A DNA stretch of 64,000 nt from Saururus chinensis (taxonomy: Eukaryota > Streptophyta > Magnoliopsida > Piperales > Saururaceae), in assembly GCA_035235625.1 (NCBI GenBank), contig CP141142.1:40031644-40095643 (forward strand). Direction: 5' to 3'. The position numbers and the translations under genes are program-made. Position 1 is the first letter of the stretch. Each line of letters begins with the position of its first letter. The notes under the pieces are model-generated. The model was not told the DNA's origin, searched no databases, and saw only the letters and a list, made by a program, of their open reading frames with translations. Positions 362-62,786 of this stretch are shown piece after piece.

Positions 362-3300
362 TGTAATATCTTAAATTTTGTTAGGTTTCTAAACATATAG
401 AAAATAGTATATTGACCCCTCATATTCTTAGTTTAAAAAAATCTACAGTATATGGAATTTAAGATTGAAATGTATGTGGTTAGAAAATAGACAAAAAGAA
501 TTTTGAAACGCCACAAAAATGCATGAACTGGAGTTTAGATGAGGGAGTTATGACTGTTTAAAATTGAACATATTGTACATGACCTGTTTACCTGATTTAG
601 ATGTGTATTTGAGCCGTTTAAGTCATTTTGTGGGCCAAGTTATTTATAGTGATAGAAATTATTAAAATATAGCACCTTAGCCCAACTTCTAAAGGGATTA
701 GGGTTCCTAATCCCCATGTTTATAAAAAGGCCACCTAGGGCTTATTTTGGGGAAGCGTTTGGCCCTAAGGCGGGGAAGAGAGAGAAGAGTGTCGCTTGAG
801 AAGTTTCGGCAAGTCTAGTCAGGGACAGGCCGATGGCAAGGAGGAGTGAGATAGAAGATCAGCAGTGGATCAACGACAACCCAACGTTTGAGGTAGGATC
901 GTTGAATTGTCCTTGAGTTTAGTGTATAGTTAGTTTGGTTGTTAAAAACCAATTATTTATTAATAATTAATGAGAGGAATAGTGCAAAAGAAGGGGAGCC
1001 GAATTGCCAGCCCACCTCCATCAGGTGACCAACTTTCTATTGCCGGTTGGACACTCTACCCAGGTTGCCGGTAATTAATAATATGATTTTTTTTATATCA
1101 GGGAGGAACACACAAGTTTTTCCTCAATATGCTCTTTTTCGGCCGAAAGGTATAGGATGGTCACAGATCCGGCGAGTAGAGCTAGATTTTTGGCTCTGCT
1201 CTCATGACGATCATTGCATGATAGCTGACCACCATGAATGGTGTTTCCTCTAGCAAGATTTGAAAATAGACATCAATGAGGCAACATAAGGAGGAACAGA
1301 ACGTGAGTGGAGAAGATAGTCATGCGGGTTTGGATTTGGATTTGGATTCAGGCTAGCAACAGGATTTGGACTTCCAGATTGGCCGTGTGATGGCAATCCG
1401 GTTGAGCCCGCCCCTCGCTAGACTGTGATAGGCAATTAGCAACATCCTTTGATAAATCTCACGAAAAAAATAGAAAGGGATGCCCTTTGGCCCTCGACCG
1501 GCGACCAGACGACAGCGGGGCTAGGGTCGTTGGTTTCGCCACGCACATGTGGTCCAACTAGGCAAAGCCCTCACTCTGTCATTGTGGCTAGTAGGCCTCT
1601 GGCCGGCTGTAAGGGAGACGACCTAAGATGTGGGTTGTCGGGCCCAGGTCCGAGTTAGGTAACCCAATCCGTTTTGGTGAGAGCTAGGTACAGTCCAAAC
1701 TAACAAAATAAACTAAACTGGGTCTGGTTCATTGAGTTAAAATAGTAAAAGAAAATTGAAAAAAATTACAAATGACCGTGAGAGCATGTAGAGTATCTTG
1801 ACCAAGCTTCAAACTGGGGAAAAATCCTAGAGGATTTGAAATGACTAATTATGTAAGAGTTGAATCATAAATTTTTTTAATAACCCGATTTAGGGGCTCC
1901 GAGCCTTATGAGTAGGTTTAAAAAATTAAAAAAAAATCATTGATAGGTGCATGTACCCTAATTATAGACCAATGCACAACCTAGGAAAAAATCCCAATAA
2001 ATGATAAGTGACTATATTACCCCTAGGGTTAAGGTAAAATTGTTAAATAAACCAAGGTTAGTTCAAAGGGTTTACAACCCCGTTAAACGGAAAGAAAATT
2101 ACCTCAGGTCCATAACATCAAGGAGTATCCCTGAGATTAGTTTTGGACTTATTAGGATTTAGAGATGCCCTAAACAAAACGATAGACATATCCCTATGAG
2201 TGAACTAACCCACATTCGTGTGAATGGAATTAACAGGCAAAGTTCATATTGAAACCTCTTGAAAGGTCAAAGACTGACCCAAAAATGGAGAGGACCACAT
2301 CCAATATGGAAAAATTATCATAATGCCCTCATGTGCATTGTAACCTATTTTCATGAAAATACTATCTCCTAACTCAAAGAGAGTTAGGGCATGAGAATAC
2401 AGATATTTTTAGTGCTATAATTGAGTTTGGGCCTTAGTATTATGATTCATTTAGACCTGTGTGGGTCTGTATTATTTATGCTTTCATTTTCTTTAATATT
2501 TGCTATTGTTGTCACGATAGTAATTTATCACTAGCTTAATATTAATGAATGGGATTATATGGCTTTGGATTGGGTGAGAACACCTAATCAAAATAAATAC
2601 TAAAATACCCTCAAAAGGGTTTTGGACTAATTCATAGAGTGAACAAGGCCTTTGATCTGACGATTTGCCTTAGTTAATGAACTGACGACATTTTGAGTTT
2701 TAACCATAGTCTAGATGAGACTGATAGGGTTTGAGATAATCATTCAGAATCCTTACTTATTGATGAGCAGGATAGAAAATGGTTTTTCCAAGTCTTAGCT
2801 CTGTTGAGGAGCTATTGATTTGGCTCTGAAGTTGCACATCCCCATTGGAGGGAGCTTTGCATGAGCTTGGCTTACCACCAATTTATTCATAATCGTTTAG
2901 TGTACACATATTTAGATAAACTCACATCCTGTTGGTTGGCTTTTCCTGCCACTTCTATTCATGTGCAGTTGTAGGTCATGTTCTTCCACACCGGTCAAGT
3001 CCTTATGGAATAGGTTGGGTTATGGCACTTCCTAGTTGTCATGCCCAGCACACGCCACCCCCGAGCCAAACCTAATCCAAGGAGGAAGCGGCACGCGGCG
3101 AAGTATAGTTGGATTGAGAAAGACTTAACCTATCCTAGGGTAGAACACACTTCGGAGTTGCGCATGTATTCTTTGTACAAAAACAAAATGAGAAATAAAA
3201 TGACTACTAATTAAAATATTAATCCACTCATACCTATATACTTAGTCATAAATAAGCCAACACATGGCTAAAATAAGTCTAAGCCAACAATCGCTATATA

Positions 3301-5154
3301 GAAGTGTGAAGTATAGTTAAGTATATATAGATCTCAACATAACATAAACAAGCTATCATAAAACCTAACATCTTCATGAATCCCCTCTTAATGATCGGCG
3401 TCATCCACAAGCTCAACATAGAGTTCATCCAAATAACCTATATGGCACGACATGCAGCCCCAAAACAAAACACAAAAACAAAGTGGGGTGAGCTAAAGAT
3501 CAGTAAGAGTTTTAATTTGGAAAGTAAATTCATAATGAAAACACATACATGATCAACATAACATTCACTACATAATCAAACACTATGCCCATTCATCAAG
3601 GAATAATCACATGTACTTGTGCCACCTATGCATCATGTTATAATTTACATCCCATAAGCATCTACTCTTGCTACCTGCATATCATGCTATCTAAAATATA
3701 TTTCATCAACACATAGTCATATCACATACATATCATGCTATATATAACATATCCCATCAACTCATAGTCATGCCACCTGCATATCATGCTATATATAATA
3801 TATTTCATTAACACATAGTCTTGCCACCTGCATATCATGCTATATATAACATATTTCATTAATATATAGTCATGCTACAAACCATATTCCATAAGCACAT
3901 ATTATGCCACCTGTGCATCATGGGTTTATCCATAGCTCATAACACATATACACCTTATGTGTAAACATATGAAACTCATTATCATAATCACATCCTATAT
4001 GAATCATTCTCAACACAAACATATCATGCATATTCATTTCTCAATAAAAACATTCACCATGTAACATCAAGTGCATCAACTGTACACCATCCTACATATT
4101 CATGCAAATCATACCATAATCACATGTATAAAATAAGCTTCATTGTTCCTACACAAATTGTGCCAATGAGCGTTATCTCCCACACACATGCAATAAATCA
4201 ATGATAAATATCTTTCAATTGAGAAAAACTATCAACCTGCTCACTGAGGACAATCTCTAGCTAGGAAGGGCAGAATTCGTATAAAATGAAAACTAGTGCG
4301 GTTTAGGTAGGTTCCATGACTAAAAAGGTACTTCCTGCTCACCCAAGATAATTGTTAGCGGGGAAGGTCCGAATTCTAAAAAGGAAAATTGGAGCAGCCT
4401 GCTCACCCAGAAATAACCTTGCAAGGGAGAGTCTGAATTCCTTAAAAGGAAAACTAGAGCAATCGTGGTAAGCCGGTGCACACGAACATATCATTCTAAA
4501 TTCTCGGGGTCCAAATAACTCATCAAATAAACTCAAATAGGTAAACTGCTTCATCTCAACCTGGGGAGGCACCACATTCTCGAAGGAACATAAAATAAAA
4601 AATATGTCCTTTGGACCCAAAACCAATTCAATAAGCCTCCAAACGATTAATTGGGCATCCCATGGCATCCAAATACATCCAATCATTTAATCACGGCTAA
4701 TCATGATTATTCTTATTTACAAATTATTTTAATGATGCAGGCAACATAGTACACACGCGAGTAAAAAATAAATGAGTCTAAGTGTAAGTAAATATACTCA
4801 AAGTCCATATGTTTATGAAACATGATCCATTTGTGTCACACTAAAGCATATAAGTCTATGCAATAGTGTACATAAGTGGCAGTGTTCAAAACCTAAGCTA
4901 AAATATGTGAAGCATGGTCAAGCTATAATCAATGGTAAATATTCAAACACTTATAATATATCATAGTCCTATCTAACTGAAATCATGGAGTAAATATATA
5001 GAAAACATCGAAATAAGAGTTCAAAATAAATATAATATCATGCTAGTCCTAGACAAGTATAATATATCCATGTTTAAGCTAAAACAGGTGAAACATGAGT
5101 CACCCTAAATCAATATAACATAAGCAAGCATATATACATAAGCATGGTCAAAAC

Positions 5155-6561
5155 TGTAACGCCCTGACCCAAGCCGGGGCCCAAATAATCTCTAATAAGA
5201 ATTTTTCTTTCCTTAAGGCAGGAATCATCATCTGTGTGCGAGAGGTACAACGTTCATCTACGCACTATGAAGCTTCAAGGCTTCCTTATACGTAGACTCA
5301 GGTTGTAACGATCATATACACACAACGAAGCTTCATAGTTTGTTGCATGTAAATTAGAATAAAACTTATTATTATAATTATTTGGATTGGGCCAACGTTG
5401 CCATGTAGTTAGTTGCCTAAGTACGTATTAGATATTATTCCAATACGATTGCATTCGAACATAGTTCTACCTAACGGCTATTACATACCTCAAGCAACAC
5501 AAAATCACATACATTAAAATACGTATATACTGATATCCAATCAAAATCATACTAAAATTTGTAATCTACTGGAGTCAAGCAGAAGATTGCTTCTCTCGTT
5601 GTGACCTAGCAACTGCAAAAAGAACCTCATCTTATTCGTGACCCATTTTTCTTTCTCTGGCGCTCAAAGATGATGGGTAGGGCCTCTCCTTATATTAGGG
5701 CATTTCCTCCTCATATAGTCTTCAACTGAAGAAATGATCACTCTATTACGTAGAGCATGCTCAATTTAGTCAATAATAGCTCTTGAACAGACTAAATCGG
5801 AGCTAGGATGCTCAGAAACGGAGAAAAAAAAGTTTGTTAGTGCTCGAAGACAACGGGCAGAACCACTCCTTCTCTTGGGGTGTTTCCTCATACGGTCTCC
5901 AACTCAAATAAAAGAACACTCCATTGCGTAGAGCACACTTGATTTACTTAAGAATGCCTCTTGAACGGCCTTAATCGGACTCAGAACGCTCATAAATAGA
6001 GGGAAATGAGCTCTAGTCTCAAAATGGAGGAGAATGAGGTATTTATAGCCCCCGAGCCGCTATTTTAAACCACGGCGCTGCAAAACCGCGGCGCCCGTCG
6101 TTTCAAGCCCCGTGCGCGCTCGATGCATCACCTGTACATCGCGGCCATGCAATACGCGCGCTGCAGGCACACGTGCTGCCCGCGCATCTGTCGCGCACGC
6201 CTTATTTTATTTTATTTTATTTTTAAAACACATCTTCAAATGCGTGTAACTTCCTACCCCAGATTCACATGTTCTTGGTACCGTTGGACTCGTATCAACA
6301 ACCCCTTTGATACTAACCTACTTAAAGCAGTATATCTTGCTCTTTTCAAGTGGGTTTTGCCTATTTTCCATGCTTTTCGAGGTCATAAATTTCAGTCCCG
6401 ACCTCCGTTTAGCCCGTTCTTTGATTCATTACGCTCATTTCTTCGAGCACTACTCATATACGAAGGTTTAAACCTCTAAAACTCTCTATAATTTATCAAA
6501 AAAATCTACTAATTACCTCTAACCCCCATGGCTAAACATAATTAGAAAAGCGGGGTGTTAA
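5155..6561 (+). mobile_element. Solo LTR, family C, nested in the family-B LTR
   Basis: This 1.4-kb LTR starts TGTAACGCCCTGACCCAAGC and ends ...GCGGGGTGTTAA; the expected terminal TTACA is decayed. Perfect 5-bp flanks AAAAC occur at 5150-5154 and 6562-6566. It carries the motif ttgcctaagtacgta near 5415, shared with families A and D. No internal coding region or second LTR is present. Confidence 0.75.
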
Positions 6562-7984
6562 AAAACCTACTAGAATCATCAAATGAATTATAAAGAAGTC
6601 ATCAAACATGGATGTAAAACAAGGAGGATATCATACTAAATTAAAAAAGTATAATCCTAATCATGTTTGAGTTAAATCATAATTTAAAGAAGGTTATCAT
6701 ACAGTCACAGTAGCAATATAGGTAATACTAACTCATTTTAGTAAAAAAGAATTAGATTTATTAGATTTATGAGAAGAGAACAAGAAATGACCAAAACACA
6801 CAAAACTAGACTAAGGCACCAAAACTGCCATTTAGCCATTCGAACACCCTGTCGGGCCATTCAAATGCCAGGCTAATTGATCGGCGAGATTGTAAGGACC
6901 TTCATCTCTAAACCAGTTTTTGGTTTCATTTAATTATTAATTATCGTGAGACTTACGCATTTTCTAATTTATTCGGCGATTTCGTGAATAAATAGTGTTT
7001 GTGATGGTTTTAACCAAAATTAACTTTAATATTAGTGATTTGAAAATAAATGTGAATTTTTGGGATTTTTTTGAATTTTTACTATTTTTTCAAAAATTAG
7101 GGTTTTGGCGGGACCCCTCTGGGCCCCACAGTCGAAATTTCGGTTTTTGGGTCAAATGAATCCAGATGTCTACCTAAGGTTATACAAAAATTTTTAGAAT
7201 TTTATTAGGCTTAATTAGTGCTTAAATTTGTAAAATACTCATTTTTAGCCTACTTTTCCTATTTTCACCCCATAACTTAACCATACATACCCCAACCCTT
7301 GCTATAAAAGGGCAAACCTGAGCCATTTTCATTTTTGGGAATCGGCTAAGGAGGGAGGGCTGGCCTAATCCCTAATTAGGCCCAAATTAGAAGCCGATTA
7401 AGTTAAGCTTACTCTAATTAAGCACTAAACCCTACTTTCTTCTTAATCTCTTCCAAAATCTACCATTTTCCCCTTGTTTCAATTCGTTTTTGGACATCAA
7501 AAACTACTGATTTGTGTTTTACTACAAACCCTAAGATTCAAAATTCGATTTTTACTATCAACAAGCCCTAGATCTAAGATTTAATTAGGAATTTCTTGGG
7601 TAAATCAATTTTTAATAGAGTTTAATTCAAACTCATTGTGTTTTCAAGGATTTCAAGAAGGGTGACTCTCCAATCCGAGCTTAATCAAATGCTGAGGTAA
7701 TGGGTCTTCGAAATCTCAGTTTATCCATGGTAAAATTCTTAATTTTTGGCTTATTTCAAATGGAGTTGCTTGATTTGGTGTGTTAATGTAATATTAGAAA
7801 ATAGAATTATTTAATCCCAATTTCTTAGGGTTTTACATTATTATGATATGGTTTAACTTTCTGGAAGTCAAGAAGGACTTTTGATGATGATTAGGGTGTT
7901 AGATGTGGATTTGAAGTGTTATCAATGGTGTTTCGGTTTGGATTTGCAAAAGGAAGAAGATGATTCAGTTCTGCCTTGTTGGCA

Positions 7985-8147
7985 TTCGAACGGCCCTTCT
8001 GGGCGTTCGAACGGCAACACTGTCAAAATGACAGTTTTTCAGTTCAGCCGATCGAACGGCCTGCTAGGCGTTCGAATGGCCAAACTGTGAATTTCAAATT
8101 TTTACATTTAACTGATCGAAAGGCCTGAAGGGCATTTGAACGGCTAC
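7985..8147. repeat. Three imperfect palindromes of the type GAACGGCC...GGCGTTCGAA
   Basis: Blocks at about 7985-8011, 8051-8077 and 8113-8140 each contain a forward TTCGAACGGCC-like arm, a 4-6 base loop and the reverse arm. Degenerate single arms also occur in the host LTR at about 6838-6872 and 10365-10393. They lie within the minus-strand family-B LTR and its host copy. Confidence 0.6.
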
Positions 8148-9383
8148 ACAACAGATTGGTATTCTAATGCATGATGTTTATTTCGATGATTCTACTTTAA
8201 CTTGCCAATTTTATATGAATGTGGAGTGTTTTGAGCCATATTATGCTACTGAAAATGCATGTTATTGAGGTTGTGAAGTTGGGATATATGCTTAGAGATT
8301 TATCGAATGACTTATGTTTTATGGCATGATGTTGGAATTGTCATCTTGAAATTGTGAATGGTTGATTTCCTATGGTTGAGCATATTTTCAGTAGGACTAC
8401 AACCTATTATTGGACTGATTTGTCATGATAGAGTGTGGTTAGTTGGTGTGTGGATGTTGGTGAATACCATGACTCAATGATGAAATAAGTGATGTTATAT
8501 GTGTTTAGCCTTTGTGGTTGAGTTTTGAATTGGGATACGATTTCAACGATTCTTCTTCTATGATTTCCGTTGGAATTCATGTTTAGATGGAAATTCACAT
8601 GTGTAGTGTGGTAGTGAGTCTAATTTCAAGCATATTGGCATGCATTGTGTGGAATGCTTCTACTAGTTACACACACACACATGTGGGGGTTAAATGATGA
8701 TGTTGAAGCTTGATATTGTGATTATGAATGATGCATTAGAGGCTGATGAGAGCACTTATCATGGATTAGGATTCATGTATGCCTTGTCCACGTATGTATC
8801 ATGCTGCATGCATCATGAAAATAGATTTCCAATTGATGCTTCATCGAGGTTAATCGAATTTGACCGATTGGATGCAATGTGGTTAAATTATGTGCCGGAT
8901 TGATCGGTCGTGGATTAATCGTAAGTTGATTGGTCCGAAAGGACATGTTTTGATTTGAGTTCTTGTGTGGAACGAGTGCACTCCCCAGGTTGAATCTAAT
9001 TAAATGGGATTACGTGGGGACGAGTTGTGTACTTGTCTTGCGGATTATGAGAATGTTATTATGAGTGTCATCTGGACCCTGAGAATCCAATGTGGTACGC
9101 CGTGTGCACCCCGCTACCACGTGTTCTAGGGTTCTCTGTGTGAGAACTCGGGCTCTTCCCTCTGCAGGAGATGTCCCTGGGCGAACACCCCTGCTCTAGA
9201 TTCTCTGTGTGAGAATGGGACATCCTTGGCCAGGATCGTCTAGGGCGAGCAGTTTCATTAGGGATTGACAACCCCGATCTTTCTTGAATTCTTGTGTAGA
9301 ATTTTGGACCATGACACGCCTTCGTGGCCTTGTCTATGCTCCCATCTGTGTGACACCAAATTTGTGATTACTCCTTGATGGAG

Positions 9384-9717
9384 GTTGTTATGATATAATG
9401 CATGTGGGAATATGTATGTTAGAAATACATCTATGAAGGTTGATTATGATATGATGCATGTGGGAATATGTATGTTAGAGATACATCCATGCAGGTTGAT
9501 TTTGATATGATGCATGTGGGAATATGTATGTTAGAGATACATCCATGCAGGTTGATTATGATATGATGCATGTGGGAATATGTATGTTAGAGATACATCC
9601 ATGCAGGTTGATTTTGATATGATGCATGTGTGAATATGTATTTTAGAGATACATCCATGCAGGTTGTTATGATATAATGCATGTGGGAATATGTATATTA
9701 AATATACATCCATGCAG
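9384..9717. repeat. Minisatellite, six units of 55-56 bp
   Basis: Units start at 9384, 9439, 9495, 9551, 9607 and 9663, each opening with GTTG(A)TTATGATAT and containing gcatgtgggaatatgta. The four middle units are nearly identical and the outer ones are diverged. It is internal to the family-B LTR at 6891-10354. A long antisense open frame here is a by-product of a period not divisible by three. Confidence 0.92.
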
Positions 9718-12098
9718 GTTGATTATGCACCATGATGTAGTGTTAGGTGATATGTATGTGTGATCAAAAAATGATGCATCATGTAAATCTTTGATCTAAA
9801 CGACTATATTGCTATGCTATTGTATTTTTCAATGTTGCTAGTGATATTAAAAACCATTGCAGAGTTTGTTAAACTCACCCCTCTTTCTTGTGTTTTGATT
9901 TGGGGCTGCGTGGTGCGACATGCAGACGGACAAGATCTCCTCTTTGAGGAAAGGTCGGAGATGGCTTGGATGTGATCTTGGAGATTGTTGTGTGACTTAT
10001 CTTCTTTGGTCTTATGTTTTATGTTAGAACCTTTGTGTAGGGTTCTTTGTTTTGGATTTATGTCACATTTTACAGTTGTTATGCTTATGACTTATTTTGA
10101 GCCGGTGTGGGCTTTACTTAACTAAGCATGTGAGTTTGAGATTATTTGTTTACTTTGTGATAAGCAACACTCTTTCTTCCCTTTTATTTACTCTTGCTCA
10201 AAGGATTGTGCGTACTCCATATTTCTGTTAATCGCCCATGGTTAGGGTTAAGTCTTCCGCTAGATCATTTCTCAATCTTCCTTCGTCGCCCCCGCGCGCT
10301 TGATCGGCCCTTGGACTGGGTTCGGCTCGGGTCGGGCATCGCCGGGGCGTGGCACAGATAGTTCATTCAAATACCTATTAGGCCATTCAAATGCCCTTAA
10401 CAATTCATTTTTTGCCCATTTACTGGTTCGTATTTAACCTTCTAAAATTCAAACAAAAAGTATTCCAAAATTCAAGATAAATTCCAAAATTACTATAAAA
10501 TATCATAATATCAAAATATAACCCTAGAACATGATAGATCTAATCATTTTCATGCTTAAATCACGAGAACCCACATAAACTTACAAGCATGCAATCCAAT
10601 GGATAAAACCACACAAAATGAAATTTCCTTACCTCTATGAAGTTCTTAGATCTATAAAAAAGCTTGAATCCTCAAGAAATCCTACCCAAAATTAGGGTTT
10701 TTATTAAAATTTACTAAAAGTCAACTGATTTGGTTAAGTAAAATTAAAAATAGGTCGATCTAGAGTATCATTTGGTTAAAAATAAAAATCACCCATTTAG
10801 GGTTTTAAATTGAAATTAAAAATAAGATTTTTTTAATGGAAGAAATTAAGAATCCATTTGGAGGAAATGAAGATAAGAAGAATTAAGACCAAAATCGGAA
10901 GATTATGATGATTAGGGCAGGAAACTCACATAAATTGGATTTTCCTCTTTAGGAAATAGGGGTAGAGCACCTCCTTCTCCCTTGCACAGCCCTTCCCAAA
11001 ATAGGCAAGTGGCTAAGTTTTTCCTGAAATAGTAAGGTTTGGGCTACGTTTACAAACTATTGAGCAGTAAAATAGGGTAAAATGCCCAAAGTGGTTAATT
11101 AAGGTTATTTTATGGCTAAAAACGAGTTTAATCAATCCAAAACATACTGATATAAATAGTTAAAGTTTAGGAGTCATGTGGGTGGGTCACACTCTATCTA
11201 AGGTGGGCTTAGGGCCCATGGCGGGGTCCACACCCATAATTAAGGGGAAAATACCATAAAATTTATAAAATTCTTAAAAATTAGATAAATCAAGTTTGAT
11301 ATTATAACTTATAAAATAAAATTAAACCTTATTAAAACCATAATTACTAACTCTTAACTAGAGGCGTTAACGAGCTTAGTTGAGCTGAGTATTAGGCTAT
11401 TACGGCTCGAGCTCGAATTGTTGAAGCTCGGCTCGAAGCTCGAATAAGCTATAACCTTTCAGCTCGAGTTTGGATTGAATTAGAAATCCAAAGCTTGACT
11501 CAAGCTCGAGCTCGAACTTGAATAAGTGAATCATGAGCTTAGTCTTGAACTGGGCTCAAACTAAAAAAATAAAAATAATCTACATATAAATCTAAAGTAT
11601 ATAAAGTATCACACATACTAATATGCTTTTAGTAGTAAATATTAATAAATATACTTCAACAAGTATTATGATTGCACCTTGAACATCTAATTATAGTCAC
11701 TATGAAAGAAGAAAACTATGACAAATAAGTTTTAGTTACATATGCTCAAAAAATGCAACATTACTATTTTCCACTCTTTATGTGCATATAATCACTAAAA
11801 AAGATGTAAAAATAAAAAATCATTTAGGCAACATTGTTATCTACTTCTTCGTGTTTTCTTTTCTTTACATGTTTATAAATCACTAATAAAAAAGCTATTA
11901 TTTAGCCTTAGTGTGCCTCTAAAAAATTCTAAAGTTACATGTAAAAAGATATACATTTTGTAAGATGAGGACGGTCCCAGAATCATGCTTCAACTTTTAA
12001 AAAAATATATAATCATTCTTTTATAAACTAAAGTTGGTCCACAAATGTCATGCTTCTTTTACAAGTATTTTTAAGTATATTAGTGTGATATCATGTTG

Positions 12099-12198
12099 AC
12101 CCTCTGTCATATACTTATAGCTCCATTTGGTTTTTGAATTGAACTATTTAGTTCATCTTCAAGAATTAAATAAAGCTATTAATTTGGGACAAAAGGAG
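12099..12198. mobile_element. Stowaway-like MITE, decayed
   Basis: The left end reads ccctctgtcatatacttata and the right end ttaatttgggacaaaaggag followed by TA; they are approximate inverted repeats around 'agctccatttgg'. The left TA is lost. Confidence 0.5.
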
Positions 12199-12926
12199 TA
12201 TATTAGTGTTTCTGCTGCTAATTTTTTTATTTTATAAAATATATATAATATATAAAAATGATATATACATTACAATTTAACAAGGATATATATCATTGTA
12301 ATGCCCGTGATTTTTCATACATTTTCCTCAAAATTCATGAAAAATTTTGCAATATAACTGCTATAAATCGGGAAAAATGACGAATATGAAACCTGTGAAA
12401 ATAATTTTTTTAATTTAAAACATAACACATCAGTTTTCCCATTTAAATTGTTACTCATTCGATCAAACATCATACGGCCAAACTAAACATACACAGGCGC
12501 TACTCGAAAACAAATGTACAAATAAATTGCTATGATCATAGACTTTAAATACAAATCTCTCCCAGGCATCCCTGAGTGCAAGTCCCATAACAGTCCACAG
12601 TCTGATCCAAACTAAAAGTCCAGAATACATACACATCTTAATTCACATCTCACTCAATACATCAGATCGTAGCACAAATAATAGCCGTAGTAAGTCAAGT
12701 GTATATTTGAGTCCAAGGGAATAAATCCATTGCGGAAGGAAGCATCCATCTCTAGGAGCTCTTAGACACAAACCTACAAAAGCCTCCCGAATAACGGGGC
12801 TAAAAAATAGGGTAATGAGTACTTTCATATTCAGTAGAAAAATACCCAATAGGAGAGTTTTAAATAGTGAACTCAGCAAATCCATACATAGATGCGTTCA
12901 TGCAACTCAAACATGAACAAACAGGC

Positions 12927-14552
12927 TGTAATAACCCTATTTTTTTGACACGTTATTTTATAAATTTTATTATTTAAGAATTTCCTAAGTCTGGTCATAA
13001 CAGACAAGAGTAATAAGTCAAAAATAAAAAAATTGGAGACCAGGAACAAAAGTTATGGCCTCGGGAAGCGTGCTCTAAAAACTAGCGGGACCCACTTCTA
13101 AAATATGGGTAAACCAGTCCATAAGTGGTCTAGTCTCGTAGGGCTCGTGAATACGAGCTCAAAGGTACCTAGAACGTGCAAAACAAAGTTCGAGATAGGA
13201 AGTTACATTTATTTGAAAGTTAAAAAAAAAATTCGGCTCATCGGCTCGATGCAGCACTCAGCTCAGCCGCGTGGCGCTCGAATGCGCGTGTCACGCGTGT
13301 GACGAACATGCATGTGATGAATGCGCATGTGAAAAACGTGTGTTCATCATGTGCACCCGTCGTTTCGGTGGCGGCGCCGCCGTTTTTGGCAGCGCCCGCC
13401 AGAAACCACCGCCGCCGTTTTTGGCAGTGCCCGCCAGAAACCACCGCCTTCATCCCTATTTAATCCCCTTCTTCGGCCAATTCTTCACCCACACTCCATT
13501 TCTTACCCTCTCACTATTTTTACCATTCCCTACCCATTTTAAGTCCGAATTACATGATCCAAGACCCGTTTCCTACTAAATCGAGGGTGCTCTACGCACC
13601 GGAAGGGTTATTTTCTTGAGGTGACCTCTCTAAAATCCAGAAAACCCTACCACATCCCTAATCCTCCCCTTTCTCCTTTTTACTGTTTCTGGACCATTTC
13701 AAACCCTTTTCAGCCCGTTCAAAAGCTATACCCCACTAAATCGAAGGTGTTCTACATGTTGGGACCATTATTTTGCCAAATTTCCTGCTCGAAGGAAGGA
13801 TCTTCTTTATATTCTACGAGGGGATTTCTTATACTCCACACGCATTATAGGTAGGCGGCTTTAAATTCTAATCGTATGTTGAGATTTTGACTCGCCAAAG
13901 CCTTGCTAAGGATTTTTTGAAAAGAAACTCTATCTTTAAAAACTTCTCCTCTTTCCAAAAAATTCTCCAAGTTTTGGGTAATCGTACCCTCTGGATAGTT
14001 CTTGGTTTCTTGAAACTAAGGATTATTATGATAATTTTGGATACCGCCAAATTTGGCTTCCAGTGCACACAAGACTGGGATATCATGGGAAATTCTCTTT
14101 CCTTCCGTCTCTCATTGCCCCATGAGCACGGGTGTAAGTCGTCTGGTATCGCGACATTCTGTGATGATGTTTTCAAACTTGTATCATTTTGTTTAAAAGA
14201 TTTTGAAAGAAAGATGACACAATATTTTTACATGCATATTTTTAGAAGTTAACTCAGCCTACTGGGTATAAATTTACTCACCCACCCTCAGATTATGTAG
14301 GTGTGTGTTTCGAATCTGTAGAAGCCGATGAAGAGCTTTTTTTTTTAAATTACAGTTTTGTACTTTTTTTGTATTTTTTGTAATTTTGGTATTGACTAAT
14401 GTATAAAGGCATGTTATGCCCAATTTTGGAAATCTTTATATAATAATACAAAGTATGTTGTAATTACTCTTTTGGTACACAGTGATCCTTGGCAATTGTA
14501 TTTAAAATTCGTTATATTTTCAAAAATCATTATGAATATGAGGGGTGTTACA
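12927..14552 (-). mobile_element. Solo LTR, family D, innermost element of the nest
   Basis: Boundaries are TGTAATAACCC... at 12927 and ...AGGGGTGTTACA at 14552; on the minus strand it starts TGTAACACCCCTCATATTC. Flanks CAGGC and CGGAC match at only three of five positions (two transitions). Stretches such as 'cgggacccact' and 'gggctcgtgaatacgag' (about 13085-13160) match the family-D LTR at 61051-62781 in the same order, and lengths agree (1.63 and 1.73 kb). Short frames at 13271-14252 are not recognised genes. Confidence 0.72.
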
Positions 14553-15150
14553 CGGACATACCATAATCATGCTCATATGCATACAAACATGTCAAACAAA
14601 CCATCGAATCAAACTTACACAAACACCCTTATTTAGGGTCGTACAAACTTACTCATACCACCGTACACTTACTCAAACAACTTACACATACCTGTACGAC
14701 CTTACTCGTACAATCAAATTTTTACTCATATAACTTACACATACTTGCACGACCTTACTCGTACAATCTTACTCGTATAGTCTTCCTCAAAATCATACAC
14801 TTACTGTCTTACTCAGAAACATACTCTTACAGTCATACTCATACTCATACTCTTATAGTCTTACTCATACTCATACTCTTATAGTCGTGCTCATACACGT
14901 ACTCTTACAGTCGTGCTCATACTCATAATCGTACACATACTATCGATCACTAAAATTTATTACAACTAATAAGCTTCAGCGTCAAAATGGAAAAGAATGT
15001 CACTTGGGCATTACCTTAACTTCTGGGGAGTGACTAGATGCCATGAACTTTTCCAAAGGTAAGGCACACCAATGCTCATGGAGCACAGGATCAAACAGGT
15101 AAGAGCAGGTCCATGATACTACTTACCTGAGCACGCAAATATAAACACCC

Positions 15151-15250
15151 ACCATAATGAGTCTTATAGTGCCATAGAATTGCCCACCATAATGGGTCTT
15201 ATAGTGTCATAGAATTGCCCACCATTAAGGGTCTTATAGTGCCAGTGCCA
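15151..15250. repeat. Tandem repeat, three units of 35 bp
   Basis: Units start at 15151, 15186 and 15221, each opening ACCATAATG(A/G)GTCTTATAG or a close variant. They lie inside the family-E LTR. Confidence 0.85.
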
Positions 15251-15347
15251 CTCTTGGGCAGAAAACATATAGTGCCACTTGGGCAGAAACAATAGTGTCA
15301 CTCTTGGGCGAAATCATATAATGCCACTCTTGGGCTAAAATCATACA

Positions 15348-15611
15348 ACGCTCTCAATAGAGCATCAAATATCTGGGCTTAATACAACACACAGACCAAA
15401 TTGAAAACATATGTCGCTCTCAATAGAGCATCAGATGTCTCAACTTCATTCAGCACATGGACTAAATTGGAAATATACATCGCTCTCAACAGAGCATCAA
15501 ACGTCTAGGCTTCAAATAGCACACAGACTAAATCGGAAATATACATCGCTCTCAACAGAGCATCAGACATCCAATGCTCTATACAACACACAAACAATAT
15601 CCCGCAAGATA
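15348..15611. repeat. Tandem repeat, four units of 66 bp
   Basis: The string CGCTCTCAA(T/C)AGAGCATCA recurs at a spacing of exactly 66 bp (about 15348, 15414, 15480, 15546). Because 66 is a multiple of three, the array stays open in one frame and gives a spurious repetitive peptide. It lies inside the family-E LTR. Confidence 0.85.
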
Positions 15612-16307
15612 AACACCATAACAAGACATGAGAAATGCTCAGCCAACTCATTATCAGCTAGCTCAAACACGGAACTTAATTTGTCAAACCCTCAAGTTTC
15701 AAACCCACAACGCTATCATTAGCTTTCTTATAATTCAAGTTTGAATTAAGTACATTATGCAGTATAATTATGCCAAACAAACTCACAATCCTCGACTGAT
15801 CAAACAGAAGCTGAGCCCAATAGAAACCCTAGTTTGTCAGGGCAGCAGACTTCACTTAACCAGTCCAAATCATGATCAACTCATCGTACATCAAATCCTT
15901 ACAGTCTTACATACTCTGTCATCCACCTTATGGCCAAAACATCTTACACAAATGTCATCAAACTAAGCTCTTCAGAGCCAAACCCAGTTATCACCCTCTT
16001 ACTTATACCTCACTTATTATGCTTACTTTTTACTTCATAATCTGTACGTTATGCTTATACAATTATATACACTCTTATTGTCTGACAATCCCCAAACATA
16101 CGCTCTGAGCCAAAACAATCCACTCCAATCCTCGATGTCATACACATATCCTCTGTCACTTCTTACCATCCATAGCCCATACCTCTGCCCACATGCACAT
16201 ACACATATCCATAGCATAGGCAAATAGCCATCATACATATGTATGTCCATCACACATACATATAACACACATACTTTCATACATACATAGCTTACCAACA
16301 AACTCAC

Positions 16308-16625
16308 TAGCCATCACTGGCGCATACATACACATTTATACATACTTCAAACATACACACTAGCCATCACTAGCACATGCATATGCATCCATACATACTT
16401 CAAACATGCACGCTAGCCATCACTAGCACATGCATAATCCATACATACTTCAAACATGCACGTTAGCCATCACTAGTACATGCATAATCCATATTTGTAG
16501 AAACATCCTCGCCAGCCATCACTAGCGCATATGTAATCCACATATGTAGAAACATACTTGCTAGCCATCACTAGCACATACATACACATACGAAGCTTAC
16601 CAACAAACACACTAGCCATCATGAT
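16308..16625. repeat. Tandem repeat, seven units of 49-53 bp
   Basis: TAGCCATCACTAGCACATGC or a variant recurs at about 16308, 16361, 16414, 16464, 16513, 16562 and 16613, with 'catacttcaaacat' between several of them. It lies inside the family-E LTR. Confidence 0.85.
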
Positions 16626-18723
16626 CATACATGTCATATGCATTTCAACATGACATAATTCATCCTCTTACATCATGCAAACGGATCATAATCTAACATC
16701 CATAGCATTCAATTATATAGTCCTAACAAGATGCTACTCATTCAAAGCATGCTATTATGAAATTACGAGTTCAAAGTTCCCCTACCTTGTAATCATGACG
16801 TTTGATGGCAAGCACACGATGGTGGAGGCGTCGGCGGCGGAGTTGGCGGCCAAAAGCTTTGCCAAGTTGAGAGAGTTGATGTCCTGAATATTTTAGGAAG
16901 TGCCGAAAACAATCACAACCAAACGTGGTGTCAGAAGTCAATGCGAAAAAATGCACGACCAACGGCGGCACACTAGGGCGGCCGGGAGAAAGGTCAAGCT
17001 AACATAAGTGGCGGTGTGACCGGATGTCGAGGGTGTTACTCATTGAAGGTTGGTCGGCAGCTGAGAAGTACTCGGTTGACCACAAGACGTCAAAATCGAT
17101 CGTGGATAGCACCCAACGGCGTCGATTTCGCATCAACAAGGGCCCACATAAGTGCAAAGAGTGTGGGGCAATGCTCGAGGACAAAGGAGAGGTGGTGGAG
17201 GACTCCGATGTCAACTCCATTCGGTGGTAGAGCCAACCGATGGTCAGGCGGCACAAATACAGTGCCTAAACCCAAAAGTACACTCGTGGCCACATACACA
17301 TGCGGCCAAAAAGTGTCAATCTAAGGGGAGATGGGTCGGATGGTAGTGGCCCAAGGCCCACAAAGGGGCAACTGAGCTATGACTAGGATGTGGTGGCCGA
17401 TCGAAGCGGCGACAATGCCAATCGCCACCCACAACTAACACATTTGGTGTGGGCAGCTGTGCATCTCGCAGGTATAGGGCAAAGGCAAGCGGCCCATTCC
17501 AAGCAGAGGTATAATCAGGCTAAATGGGGCTGACCCTCATTGTCGTTGAGCCGGGGCAGAGCCCACGATGGCCAAATGGCCCACAACTCGCCGATGACAA
17601 TGACCCGATATGCACCCAAAGCGTCTAATAGGGTGTAGCAAGATAATAGGGGCGAAGCGGGGTCAAAAACGGTAACCCCCTACCTACACTAGGTCAATGT
17701 AGGCTAGACAGAGTCCATCCGGTGGCCGGACGACCACTGGAAACACCGGCATCTCAAAAATATACTCTGGACAGTGAGATGCAAATGTAACCAAAACCCG
17801 ACCAAAGTATTGGTAGCTCATAGCGGAGCGAAGAAAGCATGGCAGCAGCTCTAGATAGTGCCTATGGGTTCCTAGCAGCCAATCAAACATAAGTCTAGTT
17901 GAGGGCGGCCGCAAACGACATCAAAATCGCACCCCCACGGCTCAAAAACGAGATTTGAAGGAGGGAAAAACCGAAAAAAAGTTTGGTACCTCGTGGAGGA
18001 GCGAATAGGCCATGGCAGTGATCATAGTCGGTACCTACGGACTCGTGGCAGTGAAGCAACCGGAATCCAATGACGGAGGAGGGAGAATGGAACAACCGGA
18101 ATATCACTCGGGTTTCTCTCCCAACTCACTAGAGATGAAAAACTTACTGGATGTAAGTTTTCTGGAATCTAATCTTTGGATTCCTGATTTATATACTCTT
18201 TTTATTTTTACATTTATATCCCCAATATGCGTTCACCTCCCGATTATGCGTTGTAGCTCCAAAATTTGCACTGTAAGTGCGCAGTGAATCCTACGGCCCA
18301 CGACTAAGCCCCACACCTGACTCTACAGGTATAAATATTGGAAAAAATATACAAATACGAATACTCCGAAACATCACATTTTTCCGCCGAAAATGACAAG
18401 AATAATAGCAGGAAAATTATAGAAAAATTAGGGACCTTACAATCATGAAAAAAAATTTATATAAGTTTAGGCTTACGTATGTCAGCGTGAGCCAAGGCAT
18501 CATGGGCCATCATATCAAGATCCAAGGGTGTAAGAAGACATAAACTAATCTGCCTCTTGAGTTATGTGTGTTGTTGGATCATAATATGAGGATGCATGAC
18601 ATCGATGCTCACGCAGTCGTGAGTGAGCCTTGGCTCATATAAAAGAGTCTCATATATCATATATGATACATAGTATATGTATATGTGTATGTGTGTGTGT
18701 GTGATTATATATCGCTTTATATA

Positions 18724-18806
18724 TTCCATTCGTCCTAGATTAATAGCTCCATTAGATTTTTCAAAATGAACTAATCAAATAGAGCTATTAATCTAGAATG
18801 AAGGGA
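18724..18806. mobile_element. Small Stowaway-like MITE
   Basis: An 83-bp inverted repeat: left arm TTCCATTCGTCCTAGATTAA, right arm its near-perfect complement ending GAATGAAGGGA, bounded by TA on both sides. It sits in the right part of the hAT element. Confidence 0.72.
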
Positions 18807-20005
18807 TATATATTTAAATTAATAATTATATTTATATAAAATATGTATATATATGTATTATTTATTTTATATATATATTATTTATATATAATTTTAAAAT
18901 TATATTCAAGTTCGAGCCGAGTAGCATCGAGTTCGAGTTTATTAAAGCCGAGTCAAGGAGGAATCTGCTCGAACTTGGCTTGAACTTATTCTAGCTTGAA
19001 TTGAGTTTGAGTAAAGCCTGATTAGAGTCAAGCTTAATTCGAGCCAAGCTGTGCCTGCTCAACAAGGCTGCTTGGATCGTTAACAACCCTACTCTTAACC
19101 CCAAAATCAAGTGAAACTGGCAACTAAGTAATCACATAATTAAATAGAATGAAACTGGGTTAAAGTTAGAAATCTTACAATAGTGGATTCAAGTGTTGCA
19201 CTATGGATGGTCCCTTTTTAAGGATGGTCCATAGTGGTTGTATCATTTGTCACTTAGGTTGACATTTAATGAGTTTGCCTATCTTTTTTATTAGATGGAT
19301 ATATTAATTATCGAACAATGGTTCGAGAGATAATTAATAATATTGTTTGATATTGTTTGTTTAAATAGAACAAGTGGAACGATTAAAGAACTTGCATAAA
19401 ATATAAGTTGGTTGAAAATACTTACGTATTGCATGTGTGATGATACGCTTCGTGAGGTGATGTAGTTTCTAGGCAAAACCACATCTAAATCCGATCTTGT
19501 TAAAAATATTGGAGATGTTGTTTGATGAGTACGTAGGCAACTAATATTGGGTAGTTTTGGCATAATATGAAAAACATTAGTTAATACTTTTATTCTTTTG
19601 AAAACACTCCTCCAAGGGGAGGACATGTTTCGTTGCAGGTTCTTCATGTGAGGATTTGCGAGATCAAGATATGGATAGAAGATTGATGATGACATTGCAC
19701 TAGTGAGATATAGTTTCTTACTTCTAAAATTTTATAAATAATTATAATTACTGGTGTGAGAGCTAACTTTACTTGGTTATTTATTTTTAGACGGATGATA
19801 GACTTGTACTTAGAAGGTTTGCTTGCTATTTATCAAATTTTGATACATGTAATAATATCATGACTTAGATATTTAATCGGATAATTTATTTTGCATTTAA
19901 GAAAAAAATTTGTTATAATTCATCACATGTCTTTTATTTAAAAAAAGGTTAATGAAAATCCGGGTTGTGACACTCGGGCTCCGGTTCATCTTCTCTAGCT
20001 CCCTA

Positions 20006-23000
20006 TGTCACGACCCGGATTTTTAAAAGCATTTTTAAATAGCTTGTATGGTAAGTAAATTTTTTTTTTCTTTAAATACAAAACAAACCATTCGATTAAA
20101 TATCCAGGTCATGATAACTGGGGTTCACAAATACGAATATCAAATCATATGATATTATTTAACATCTGAAAATTCATAAAGCCCAGCTCATCCATCTAAG
20201 TACAAGTCTGTCACCCGTCTGAAAATAAATAACAAGTTGACTCTCACGTTTAAGGTACACTTACGTATCGGAGTTTCAAAAATGCGGAAACCTCTTGAGA
20301 TCGCCTGTCTTGGTCTCACTTGTCGTCGCTTGGAGAATCTGCAACATAGCAAACAAAACAACCACAACCACAATGGAGCATCTCCGCCTTTAGGAGAAGA
20401 GCTTCCAATGGACAAAAGGTTTTATTAGTATTTTTCGGATCGGGCCAACATCACCCGATGTTAGTTGCCTACGTACTCATCAGACAACATCTCCAATGTT
20501 TCCAACAAGATCGGATCCAGACGTAGTTCTGCCTAGAAACTACACTATACTAAGAAGCATAGCATCACCCATGCAATGCTTAAGTATTTTCAAGCAACCT
20601 ACATTTTATGCAAGTCCTTTAATCGTTCCACTTGTTCTAATTAAACAAGCAATATCAATCAATGTTATTAATTATTTCTCGAACCATTGTTCGATAACTA
20701 ATATTCTCGTCTAATCCCAAAGACAGACGGACACATCGAGATGTCAACCTAAGTGACAAATGATAAGAAACACCACAGAATCCACCAGGCCCACGGAATC
20801 CACCAGAATTGCCATCTCCCAACCTAGCCCATAAGGACCTGACCGGAGTGGAAGGGCATGGCCCACAACCGCACACGAGGAAGTGGTCGAGACGCCAACC
20901 AAGCGGGATGTCAGCGACCCTAATTGCGTGTACACTAAAAGATCCTCAATAGATCTGCGGTGAGCCCGGCTCACAGAGAACTCCCTCCAATGGGGAGGTG
21001 CAACTACACGGTCAAATCAGCAGCTCCTCAATAGAGCTAAAACTTAGGAAACCATTCTGAACCCTATCTTGCTCATCTATAAGCCAGGATTCCGAATGAC
21101 TATCCCAAACCCTATTAGTCCCTTCTAGACTAAGGTTTACAACTCGAGACATGCCATCAGTTCATCAACCAAGGCAAATCGTCAGGTCAAAGGCTTTGTT
21201 CACTGTATGAACTAGTCCCAGACCCCTCTGAGGTATTTTAGTCTTTATCTTGATTAGGTGTTCTTGCCCAATCCAAAGCTATCAAACCTCAAACAATTAT
21301 TCTTTCAATAATTGAAAGATAGTGATAAACTACTATCACAACATCAATATCAAAAATTGAAATAAAGAACAATATAAACCACAAGAACTACACAGGTCTA
21401 AGCCTATCATAATATCAATAATAAAATTCATTAATGATATAAGAATTATTCGAGCACTCATGCCCTAACCCTCCTTGAGTTATCTTAATAAATCTTTATT
21501 AAACTGGTAGAAATGCACCTAAGGGCATTAGAGTAATTATCCAACATTGGATACAATCCTCTCCGCGCTCGGGTAAGTCTTTAACCTCTAAAAAGGTTTC
21601 AGTATCACATTGGCCCATTAATAACATTCACGCGAATGCGGGCCAGTTCTCATAGGGGTATTTCTGTCATTTGGTTTAAAGACTTAATGACATCTAATGG
21701 GTCTAAGATTGAACTCAAGCATACTACTTAACTTCATGGACTCTGTGTAATTTTCCTAGCATGTGACGGGGTTGTGAACCCCTTGATCCGACCCAGGTTG
21801 ACTTAACAGATTACGATTAACCCTAGGGCCAAAACAGTCAATTACCCACTCATTGGGATTTTTCCTCACTAAGTGGTTTGGCCTATAATTAATTTACACA
21901 TTAAACTCTCACTGAGAATTTTTCCAAGTTTTACACCAATTCATAGGCCCCTGAACCGGAGCCCCGAAGTCGGGTAAATGATTTTCACGCGATGATTTAA
22001 CTACTAGGGGTAAAAAGGTCATTTTAGAGACTCTGGGATTTTTACCGGTCCTGAAACTTGGTCAGGACACTCGCAACCCTCTCAAAGTCTATGGGTAATA
22101 TTTTCTAAATTTTTAGAGCAAGTAAAGACCCTTGAACCGGACCCGGTTCGATCCCCCTTTTCTCTTTTTTTTTTTTTTTTAGACCGTGGGCCCTAAAACC
22201 CGGTCCACTGGCCCGGTTTCGGTCCGGGTCGCTATCTGAAAATACAAACCGGCAAACCGGCTTTCTGCTTCATCTTCAACCTCTCGACCCTTTCTTTTTA
22301 TTTAATTTTTTTCCGACGGGAAGTTTTTTACAGGGCACGCCGGCGAGGCTCCGGCCGGAACACGCCGGCCTGCTCTAGATCCACCTGAAACAAAGGAGGC
22401 AGAAGATTGGAGTGGCCGGTTGCCGTCAGTCGGCAACCGCCGCCGCTCCCTTCTCAATCTCTCTTCAACGAAAATAACAGCTGCGGCCGGGAGTAACTAC
22501 GGTCGACCAGGATTACGCACAACAAGGCTCCAGTCCGACGGCGGCGAGATCTGCCGGAGTGGGACGAGAGCAGATGGCAGAAGGCGCATAGCATCGTCCC
22601 GCCCGTCCATCCTGCAGCCGCTTCACTGTAACCCACAGTAAAAAACTAAATTGGGGAGCGATTCTCCGCCGGAAACCACATGGTCAAAGCGGCCGGCGGA
22701 AATCTTCGTCTCACGCATGTAAAGCCAGCAACTTGGCTTCTAATATCAGTGAGAAGATTTCAATCCGGCCAAAAACTCATTGCCGGAGAAAAACAGATCT
22801 GGCCGGAAAAGCTTCGCGTTCATCTCTCTCATTTTTGCTGTTTTTCCCCCGGCGATTGGACACACCGGTCGGTCCTTCCGTCGGCCGGGTTTTTTTTTTT
22901 TTGGCCGGAAGAGATCAGTGGACCATCCGGTAAAAGGACTGGACGGCCGACCGGCGGCAGTCAAGAAAAGCTGCAGATTCACTGTTCTATGTAATTACGA

Positions 23001-23643
23001 AAACAGTGACTCTGCAGAGATTACTGTTCATACTAAATACCTAAACAATTCGTATTAATCACACAATAATAAATTACATAGATCTCTAATCATATAATTT
23101 ATATTATTATTTACTCAATAAAATATTCGAGAACAATCCTACCTTAATCGCCGGTTTGTTGTCGATTCACTGTCACCAAAGCTTCGCCGGAAAAATCTAA
23201 TGCCGCTCGTTCTCCTTCGCTCTAAAAATCCCCATCCTCTGATTAGGCAAAAAGCCCCCCAAAAACTCCAATTAATCCTATTTATAGGCATGGGATTAGG
23301 AGCCCTAATCCCAAGAGAAATTGAGTCCCAAAAACCTAATTTCGGAATGCTAAATAATTGGGCCCTCAAACGACTTAAACGGCCCAATTGCACGTTTAAT
23401 TCGGGTAAACGGGCCCTGCACGATATGTTCAACTTCAGACGGTCGTTTCTCCCTCATCCGGACTCCGATTCGCGCATTCTTGGTGGCGTTTCGAAGCTCT
23501 TTCCATGTACTTTCCAATAGAATTAGTTTCAGCCCTAAATTCTATCTAGGGAGAAAGTTATTCTAATAAAAATATCAATATGTCAAACACCATAATTTCC
23601 ACGTATTTAAATTTCGAAACCCGGGAAAATTAGGGATATTACA
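20006..23643 (+). mobile_element. Solo LTR, family A, plus strand, uninterrupted
   Basis: It begins TGTCACGACCCGGATTTTTA at 20006 and ends ...TTAGGGATATTACA at 23643, with perfect 5-bp flanks CCCTA (20001-20005 and 23644-23648). At 3638 bp it is the reference copy for family A. It carries ttgcctacgtactcatc near 20465, a GC-rich stretch at about 22140-22960, and an end region (23390-23520) resembling the family-A fragment at 36060-38180. The overlapping frames at 22420-23058 show no domain. No second LTR, primer-binding site or pol is present. Confidence 0.9.
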
Positions 23644-23648
23644 CCCTA

Positions 23649-35271: not shown

Positions 35272-35556
35272 AGGGGCTTCTACTCGCCAGCCAAAGTTGA
35301 CTAAGACAACCTCCAAAGAAAAACTAGAACGAGAGGGCACAAATTTCATACACGTAGTTTTATCCTTGATATGTCCCTTATATTCATTAGCCAAGTGAAG
35401 GATAAAATGCAATTAACGCCTAATCAATAAGAAATAAACACCGGTTCTAGTACGGGCTTAATAAATGTTGTTATCGAAAATGGGACCGAAATGTGAGGGA
35501 AGCTCAAACCGCCTTATTCCCTATTTTTAGAGAGACTCCATTGACCGGTCCCTTTT
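35272..35556. repeat. Upstream copy of the coiled-coil gene's promoter-proximal segment
   Basis: This 285-bp block matches 38222-38526 in direct orientation. Shared runs include gaacgagagggcacaaattt, gtgaaggataaaatgcaatt and agggaagctcaaaccgcc. It has no gene behind it and has drifted; the downstream copy precedes the ATG at 38662. Confidence 0.88.
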
Positions 35557-36059: not shown

Positions 36060-38180
36060 GTTATCTAACATCATTATAGGGTATCCTAACTCTTTGTTAG
36101 CTAGGTTATCCGTTTCAGTAAAAACAGAATAGATTACCTCTAAGGGCATTATGGTTATTATATTACCTGGGGTATGGTACTCTCCATAGGGTTATTCTAG
36201 TCATCTTACTGTCATTCTATTGATTTTGAGTCATTCACTTCTCTCAAGGCTTCACTCTCAAATCGACTTGCGCTTCTATTCATACGAATGTGAGTGGTCT
36301 ACTCATAGGGGTGTTTTAAGCATTTTGTTCAAAGCCTTCTTGACATTCAATGAGTCCAAAATTAGGCTCAAGGGTACTGCTTGACGTCATGAACCCAGGG
36401 TAATTTTCCTAGCATTTGATGGGGTCGTAAACCCTTGAACCGTCCCTGATGGTTTACCCTAAATCCTAGGCACAAAATAGTTAATTATCCACTTATTGGT
36501 ATTTTTCCTCAGTATGCGTTTTGGTCTATATTTAGGGTATATATTAAACTCTCACTAAATTTTTTTACAATTTTTAGATCCACTTATAATCCCTTGAACC
36601 GGAGCCCCTAAGTCAGGTAAGTGAACCATAACTTAGCTACAAGGGTCAAATATTCATTTCATTGTTTGCAGAATTTTTCCCTGGCCTTGAAACTTGGTCA
36701 AAACCCTCTCAAGGTTTATTGGAAATTTTTCTAGTTTTTTTAGGCATTTAAACCCTCTTGAACTAAACCCAGTTCATTCCCCCTTTTATTTCTCCCTTTT
36801 TTTAAACCGGACCGGGATCTTCTTCCTCGCAAAGACGGCAGTGGATATGGCCATGGCAGTGCTCCACCTCCGGTAGACCCCCTCCTTGGCCTCCCCGAGC
36901 CAAAATCTCACCACCATTACCCAATATGGCTTCCAGCGGTGTTTGGGTAGTGGTGGAAGAGGCTTCCGGTGGCCACCACCTCCTCCCTCTCCCTAAGGTC
37001 CTCTCTTATTAGAGCCCCGCCAGGCTCTTTCTTCCTTGGACAATCAATGCGAGAGGCCAAGGCGGCCTCCCACGAACTCAAGGTGGCGAGGGAGGAACCC
37101 GCTGTGCTACCATTACGTCCATCTCTCCCTAGACCTTGGATTTTGCGAGGTGATGCGTAGTGAAAAACAGAGGCTTGCGGGATGGTACCAAGGCAAGCCG
37201 GTGGTGGGTCTCTACTAATCCAATTGGGGTGAAGGCTGGCTAGTCTTTGTTGATCCAATTGGACCGAAGGATGGTGGAAAGCGATGGCATACCCGACTGC
37301 CATGAACTGCCCCTCTCTGCCACCCATTCTGCCAACAGAGAAGAGTGAAGTGAAATTAAGCTGTTGATAGCTTCCGACATTGTGATTGCTTACTCGTCGA
37401 AAAGTGGAGAAGAGAGAGATGAAAAAGTAGACTCTTCAACCTCACCATCTTCTATTTTCCCGACCGGACTTAGAACCATTGGCAATTCCGACCGGACTTA
37501 GAACCATTGGCAATTGGCGGTGGGCTGATGAGCCCACCCCTTTACCGTAAAGTTTTTCTCTTTAATTAATGGAGTTCAACTATAACCTTAATATTAATTA
37601 AAATAGAATTAATTTCCGTGTCCTCGAGGAAAATTAACTTATTTAACGATCCTACCTTGTCAATACTCCAATCTTTGTGTACGCTCTTATCTGACTTTAT
37701 TGCTGGCCACCTTTACCGAAAAACTTTCATGGAGACTTATTTTCTCCCCTCCCCTCTAGGCTAAAAAGCTCCTCCTAAAGACCCTAATTAGCCTTTTATA
37801 TAATAAAGAGATTAGGGTTCCTAATTTCCCAAGAAGCTTGAGCCAACTCAACCTCTCTTAAGTAACCTAATTAGGTCTCTTAAACTAATTTTTGTCTCTT
37901 TAGTTAACTAATCCATAGAGTGACTTAAGCGATTAATTTACACGTTCGATTCAAGTAAATGAGCTTTGCACAATATATTCAACTTTGGACAGTTATAACT
38001 CACTCATTTAATCTGATTTACATGTTCTTGGTGGCGTTTTGAAGCTCTTTTTGTCTACTTTATATATATATAGGTCTCAACCACCCATTTTAATTATTAT
38101 GTAAGATATTCTCATAAGAAAGTTAAGGGGTTAAATACTCTATTTTTTACGTAGCAACTTTGGAAATTTTAAACGTTACA
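36060..38180 (+). mobile_element. 5'-truncated, diverged family-A LTR
   Basis: It aligns in order with about 21480-23643 of the family-A LTR: 'gggtaattttcctagcat', 'gaaccggagccc', 'aaacttggtca', and near the end 'cttggtggcgttttgaagct'. It ends ...AAACGTTACA at 38180. Length (2.12 kb) matches the corresponding 2.16 kb of the reference. The 5' part and any duplication were not found. The open frames at 36917-37327 lie in its GC-rich part and are not genes. Confidence 0.75.
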
Positions 38181-38221: not shown

Positions 38222-38526
38222 GAGCTTTTACTCACTAGCCAACGCTGACTACACGTACTCCAAAGAAAAAACTAGAACGAGAGGGCACAAATTTCATACA
38301 CTAAGTTTTGTCCTCGATATGTCACTTATATTCATTGGCCAAGTGAAGGATAAAATGCAATTAACGCCTGATCCAGTTTGAAATAAACACCGGTTCCGGT
38401 ACCGGCAACATATCGATCATTTAATAAATGCTGTTATCGGAAATCGGACTCGGACCCGAAATGTTAGGGAAGCTCAAACCGCCCGATTCCCCATTTCCAG
38501 AGAGACTCCGCTGACCGGGCCCTTTC
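38222..38526 (+). promoter_or_regulatory. Promoter-proximal/5' UTR segment of the coiled-coil gene (downstream duplicate)
   Basis: It lies 136 bp before the ATG at 38662 and is the better preserved, more GC-rich copy of 35272-35556. The transcription start probably lies at or after its end, where CT-rich sequence begins. No TATA box could be fixed. Confidence 0.5.
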
Positions 38527-61045: not shown

Positions 61046-61050
61046 TACCC

Positions 61051-62781: not shown

Positions 62782-62786
62782 TACCC

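Follow-up and report, generated by a model that had tools for sequence, protein, structure and literature searches.

Long terminal repeats (LTRs) of the Del/Tekay lineage of Ty3/Gypsy retrotransposons measure 1143-4831 bp, as given in the available part of PMC4029996, and the available part of a study of fifteen plant species (PMC7251063) treats 4126 nested/original pairs as well as solo LTRs, and cites Du et al. as connecting the solo share with LTR length. We investigated a locus of Saururus chinensis, within a window of 64,000 nucleotides (C3:40031644-40095643; genome of 516 Mb in 11 contigs), in which positions 362-19972 hold 19.6 kb of transposable-element remnants inserted inside one another. 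With a probability of roughly 93%, we consider this stretch a five-deep nest built by serial insertion, whose retrotransposons then collapsed to solo LTRs. By this account, long-LTR retrotransposons would have inserted one inside another, each with a 5-bp target-site duplication (TSD), and one hAT-like transposon would have inserted with an 8-bp duplication; in each retrotransposon, recombination between its own two LTRs would then have removed the internal region together with one LTR, so that a solo LTR remained with its TSD still in place. We infer both the recombination step and its timing relative to the next insertion. The features are as follows, with own lengths counted as the element minus its inserts.

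357-361, no strand assigned: left-hand TSD copy of A, CTCGG, matched at 19973-19977; located exactly
362-19972, plus strand: A, solo LTR of 3463 bp, in pieces 362-3036 and 19185-19972, split by B
3037-19179, minus strand: B, solo LTR inside A, own length 3521 bp; TSD CTAGT (3032-3036) / ATAGT (19180-19184)
5155-6561, no strand assigned: C, LTR-like unit of 1407 bp inside B; TSD AAAAC twice
6891-10354, plus strand: B2, solo LTR within B and of the same kind, in inverted orientation; TSD GAGAT/CAGAT
11359-19091, no strand assigned: non-autonomous hAT-like transposon lying in B, 1583 bp without its inserts; TSD of 8 bp, CTCTTAAC twice
12109-12203, no strand assigned: palindromic unit resembling a miniature inverted-repeat transposable element (MITE), in the hAT left arm; limits approximate
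12297-18441, minus strand: E, LTR-like unit inside hAT, own length 4514 bp; TSD ATCAT twice; called an LTR, and given its strand, by analogy from the end motif
12927-14552, plus strand: D, solo LTR inside E, the innermost layer; flanks CAGGC/CGGAC, a probable decayed TSD
18719-18813, no strand assigned: second MITE-like unit, in the hAT right arm, inverted relative to the first; limits approximate
20006-23643, minus strand: A2, young solo LTR of A's kind, adjoining the nest; TSD CCCTA (20001-20005 / 23644-23648)

The termini and TSDs that an initial annotation had named for A, B, C, B2, hAT, and E were all located exactly in the sequence, and its nesting, with the order A, then B, then C, B2, and hAT, then E, then D, and a stack five elements deep, was borne out by the termini, the TSDs, and the related empty sites. 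At six of the seven junctions, TSDs match at 4/5 positions or better at matching termini. The TSDs of A and A2 agree at 5/5 positions, those of B and B2 at 4/5, and that of D at 3/5; the corresponding chance values, taken as the probability that two k-mers drawn at random from window positions 1-24000 agree at least as well, are 0.0017 for 5/5, 0.021 for 4/5, 0.00009 for 8/8, and 0.12 for D's 3/5. D had been assigned no TSD, a reading that we reject in view of the E-family copies: seven of eight show a 5-bp gap at the D junction (the eighth has a 4-bp gap and aligns poorly), which makes it most likely that CAGGC and CGGAC, on either side of D, stem from one 5-bp duplication whose two copies have decayed.

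Comparable gaps of TSD length were found at three further sites, in line with the proposal that empty sites be sought in the genome. Where B entered A, 25 of 28 genome copies lack exactly 5 bp net, and the remaining three lack 0, 3, and 7. Within B, the B2-type copies were too distant to inform on the C, B2, and hAT sites, and nearer B relatives were used instead: all five lack 4-6 bp at the C site, and four of five lack 6-8 bp at the hAT site, the fifth being unaligned there with a score of 60, within its shuffled range of 50-69. At the B2 site, none of the five relatives has more than 12 extra bases, so none holds the 3.4-kb insert.

The reassembled lengths given earlier for A (3.46 kb) and B (3.52 kb) were correct. 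The two pieces of A and the four pieces of B were aligned singly and unspliced to the reverse complements of A2 and B2, respectively, with five shuffles per piece as controls for A. The A pieces are collinear on reverse-complemented A2 (1-2842 and 2843-3638; 75.8% and 80.2% identity over aligned columns), with scores of 1449 and 652 against shuffled maxima of 137 and 103. The B pieces lie on reverse-complemented B2 at 1-2127, 1977-2314, 2336-3371, and 3369-3464 (75-79% identity), and three of the four exceed their shuffles (665 versus at most 252, 343 versus at most 138, and 43 versus at most 32). The pieces follow one another in the expected order and on the expected strand, and the proposed alignment to other copies rises above the shuffled level for both A pieces and for these three B pieces.

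The agreement in length had been taken as agreement between whole elements; the genome copies show instead that these units correspond to single LTRs of elements whose length is about 8-12 kb. Because genome copies form pairs around an internal region and adjoin a primer-binding site (PBS) at the U5 end and/or a polypurine tract (PPT) at the U3 end, A, A2, B, B2, and D are single solo LTRs and not short whole elements, with A and B called LTRs because they align to A2, B2, and family copies. For the A family, three 99% identical copies of A2 were found among the matches listed, namely two in the same orientation on C9, 1.0 kb apart, and a third on C6. The C9 pair spans 8,284 bp, comprising two 3.64-kb LTRs and the 1.0 kb between them, which begins with an initiator-Met-type PBS and ends with a PPT; the pair is bordered left and right by GTTCC, and the C6 copy by CTTAT. 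By this layout, A2 and the C6 copy are both solo LTRs. Besides its PPT, the C9 internal region (L009, C9:8795300-8796700) contains two inner purine-rich tracts followed by sequence like an LTR start, as if ends had recombined. In five open reading frames (ORFs) of at least 90 aa from two flanking, internal-side stretches of the A family (3/3 of L095 and 2/4 of L096), no Pfam match was found, and the A family may be non-autonomous or the examined copies may be degenerate.

The B family yielded coding sequence as well. A pair of B2-family copies on C5 (33112740-33124214) spans 11,475 bp, has CAACG as its outer flank on both sides, and carries a PBS with one mismatch directly past the first LTR; from this pair, one B-family collapse would remove about 8 kb. 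Its interior gave, on separate ORF pieces, matches to gag, protease, reverse transcriptase, RNase H, integrase, and chromodomain (RVT_1, 5.1e-18; RT_RNaseH, 2.7e-33; RVP_2, 3.6e-32; SH3_Tf2-1, 1.4e-20). By its pol matches to reverse transcriptase, RNase H, integrase, and a C-terminal chromodomain, the B family is identified as a Ty3/Gypsy chromovirus. D-family copies likewise form same-strand pairs, on C8 (29199728-29209024, 9,297 bp), C4, and C10, and one internal stretch matched SH3_Tf2-1 and Integrase_H2C2 (integrase zinc-binding). The assignment to Ty3/Gypsy, originally a surmise, is thereby backed by coding matches in the B and D families; the A family showed a PBS and a PPT only. Where testable, the retrotransposons would thus be of the Ty3/Gypsy chromodomain type, and probably Del/Tekay, which is suggested by their LTR length and end motif when set against the available part of PMC4029996.

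As an alternative, the units could be short non-autonomous elements present in full, whether similar to large retrotransposon derivatives (LARDs), similar to terminal-repeat retrotransposons in miniature (TRIMs), or of another kind, inserted as 1.4-4.5 kb with nothing lost. Each search scored 40 candidates (38 for E), the window's own copy counted; from the other candidates, the set examined comprised 20 of 39 each for B2 and D, 5 of 39 for B, and five for C; for E it held the ends of eight, and for A2, 20 of 36 at 89-92% together with the termini and interior of those at 99%. A script classified 20 copies per family (60 in total), calling solo a single LTR whose TSD has at most one mismatch. 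Lone units flanked by a TSD, as expected of complete short elements, account for most of the copies sampled, and C and E were seen only as lone units; solo LTRs made up 16/20 of the B, 16/20 of the A, and 8/20 of the D copies, shares that are biased because the sampled copies are mostly high-scoring and fairly complete. A PBS follows the copy, after the U5 end, in 1/20 B, 1/20 A, and 5/20 D copies, and a PPT precedes 3/20 A copies. The script left 3/20 B and 7/20 D copies unclassified; inspected by eye, these seven D copies comprise five with PPT-like sequence on the upstream side, one with a damaged PBS, and one with neither. Against complete short elements, however, stand the copies of A2, B2, and D that flank an internal region in twos, with a PBS and/or a PPT at the expected ends, and the gag-pol matches in the B and D families. 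The paired copies with PBS/PPT, and the gag-pol found between those of the B family, led us to reject short whole elements for A, B, and D, and for the nest as a whole we regard this explanation as improbable.

C and E are assigned as LTRs by analogy. Five copies of the C family measure 2,028-2,105 bp, every one with a TSD within one mismatch; relative to these, the 1407-bp copy in the window lacks about 600-680 bp at 5584|5585. The E-family unit is about 4.5 kb long, and six of eight copies examined have a perfect 5-bp TSD. The upstream flank of one C copy (L097) is purine-rich. A segment of C (5365-5557) is common to A2 (20434-20535) and to a unit near 61 kb (62416-62621) at 70.5-77% identity, and is perhaps an LTR segment conserved across families.

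Several observations weigh against serial insertion followed by collapse. Some TSDs are imperfect, with D's at 3/5 and those of B and B2 at 4/5 positions. The identities of A with A2 and of B with B2 (∼75-80%) are flattered by numerous gap columns, and the B piece 6567-6890 scores 76, within its shuffled range of 56-78. The empty-site comparison, borne out for B in A, D in E, C in B, and hAT in B, gave no clean 5-bp signature for B2 in B among the five relatives, the site lying in a variable repeat. In the C5 interior, the Integrase_H2C2 (1.5e-5), rve (4e-6), and Chromo (1.6e-4) matches fall under Pfam's own cut-offs. Further, no PBS, the only such signal scored here, abuts any of the five C or eight E copies. 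The B2 junction and the imperfect TSDs would also suit a mosaic produced by assembly error, recombination, or segmental shuffling, which we nevertheless judge most improbable, since TSDs match at six of the seven junctions and four junctions have related empty sites.

As proxies for relative age, which are not ages themselves, we used nearest-relative identities among the matches listed. The nearest copies reach 83% for A (over a 601-bp segment), 81% for the left piece of B, 84% over its length for D, 80-85% for the right piece of E (depending on the part covered), 92% for B2, and 99% for A2. On these values the frame would be old, B2 younger than the frame, and A2, next to the nest, a recent arrival. 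D and E seem about the same age as A and B, and the order of these layers could not be read from similarity alone. A and A2 belong to the same family and point in opposite directions; just 23 bp of host DNA separates their TSDs (19973-20005), although A2 looks far younger.

The inverted ends of the hAT-like element, 14 bp long, agree at 11/14 positions (3 mismatches). It resembles non-autonomous members of the hAT superfamily in having an 8-bp TSD and inverted ends that are short and imperfect, and differs in that the nest copy is without a transposase match: none was found by Pfam in the nine nest ORFs of at least 100 aa. More generally, all nine stop-to-stop ORFs of this size lying wholly within 362-19972 were without any Pfam match at an E-value of 0.001. 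The two palindromic MITE-like units in the hAT arms resemble each other in inverted orientation; they may be Stowaway-like and may bear that family's terminal inverted repeat.

Tandem arrays with units of 26-66 bp occur inside B, B2, and E, at 3669-3875, 9378-9727, 14770-14935, 15338-15565, and 16282-16621. Outside the nest, a further LTR-like unit occupies 61051-62781 between perfect TSD copies, TACCC (61046-61050 / 62782-62786), and is probably the 1.73-kb unit that the initial annotation had counted as a separate copy of D. The two are distantly related at best: D aligns to it with a score of 94.5, compared with at most 4 in eight shuffles and -24 on the reverse strand. An A-family LTR fragment (36274-38061) lies between direct repeats of about 300 bp (35276-35555 and 38224-38525, 81% identical), immediately before what looks like the start of a gene near 38662. 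About 4 kb past A2, a lipin-type gene begins on the plus strand, from 27464 onward, with a Lipin_N match.

The nest is a well-resolved case of known, ordinary plant DNA that leaves general knowledge of plant genomes unchanged. Its insertion order is fixed by nesting, related empty sites provide a check on most of its layers, and it offers a useful test case for annotation methods that mistake solo LTRs for whole elements. Since B2 lies in B, and A2 within 23 bp of A's TSD, one might ask whether long-LTR chromodomain elements target LTRs of their own kind and, because those LTRs are so long, collapse routinely into coding-free stacks of solo LTRs; we hold this idea to be doubtful.

Compared with the Del/Tekay lineage of Ty3/Gypsy, the units of the nest are alike in LTR length range and in TG..CA ends, as far as the available part of PMC4029996 describes them; moreover, D has GGG at -8 to -10 of the U5 end, and the B family has a chromodomain match. 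They differ in that the A-family stretches examined gave no pol match. In relation to solo LTRs formed by LTR-LTR recombination in plants, the units share the single LTR with its TSD and the lack of an internal region, and differ in nothing of kind. With respect to the nested plant LTR insertions treated in the available part of PMC7251063, what characterizes this nest is that several solo LTRs are stacked at one locus.

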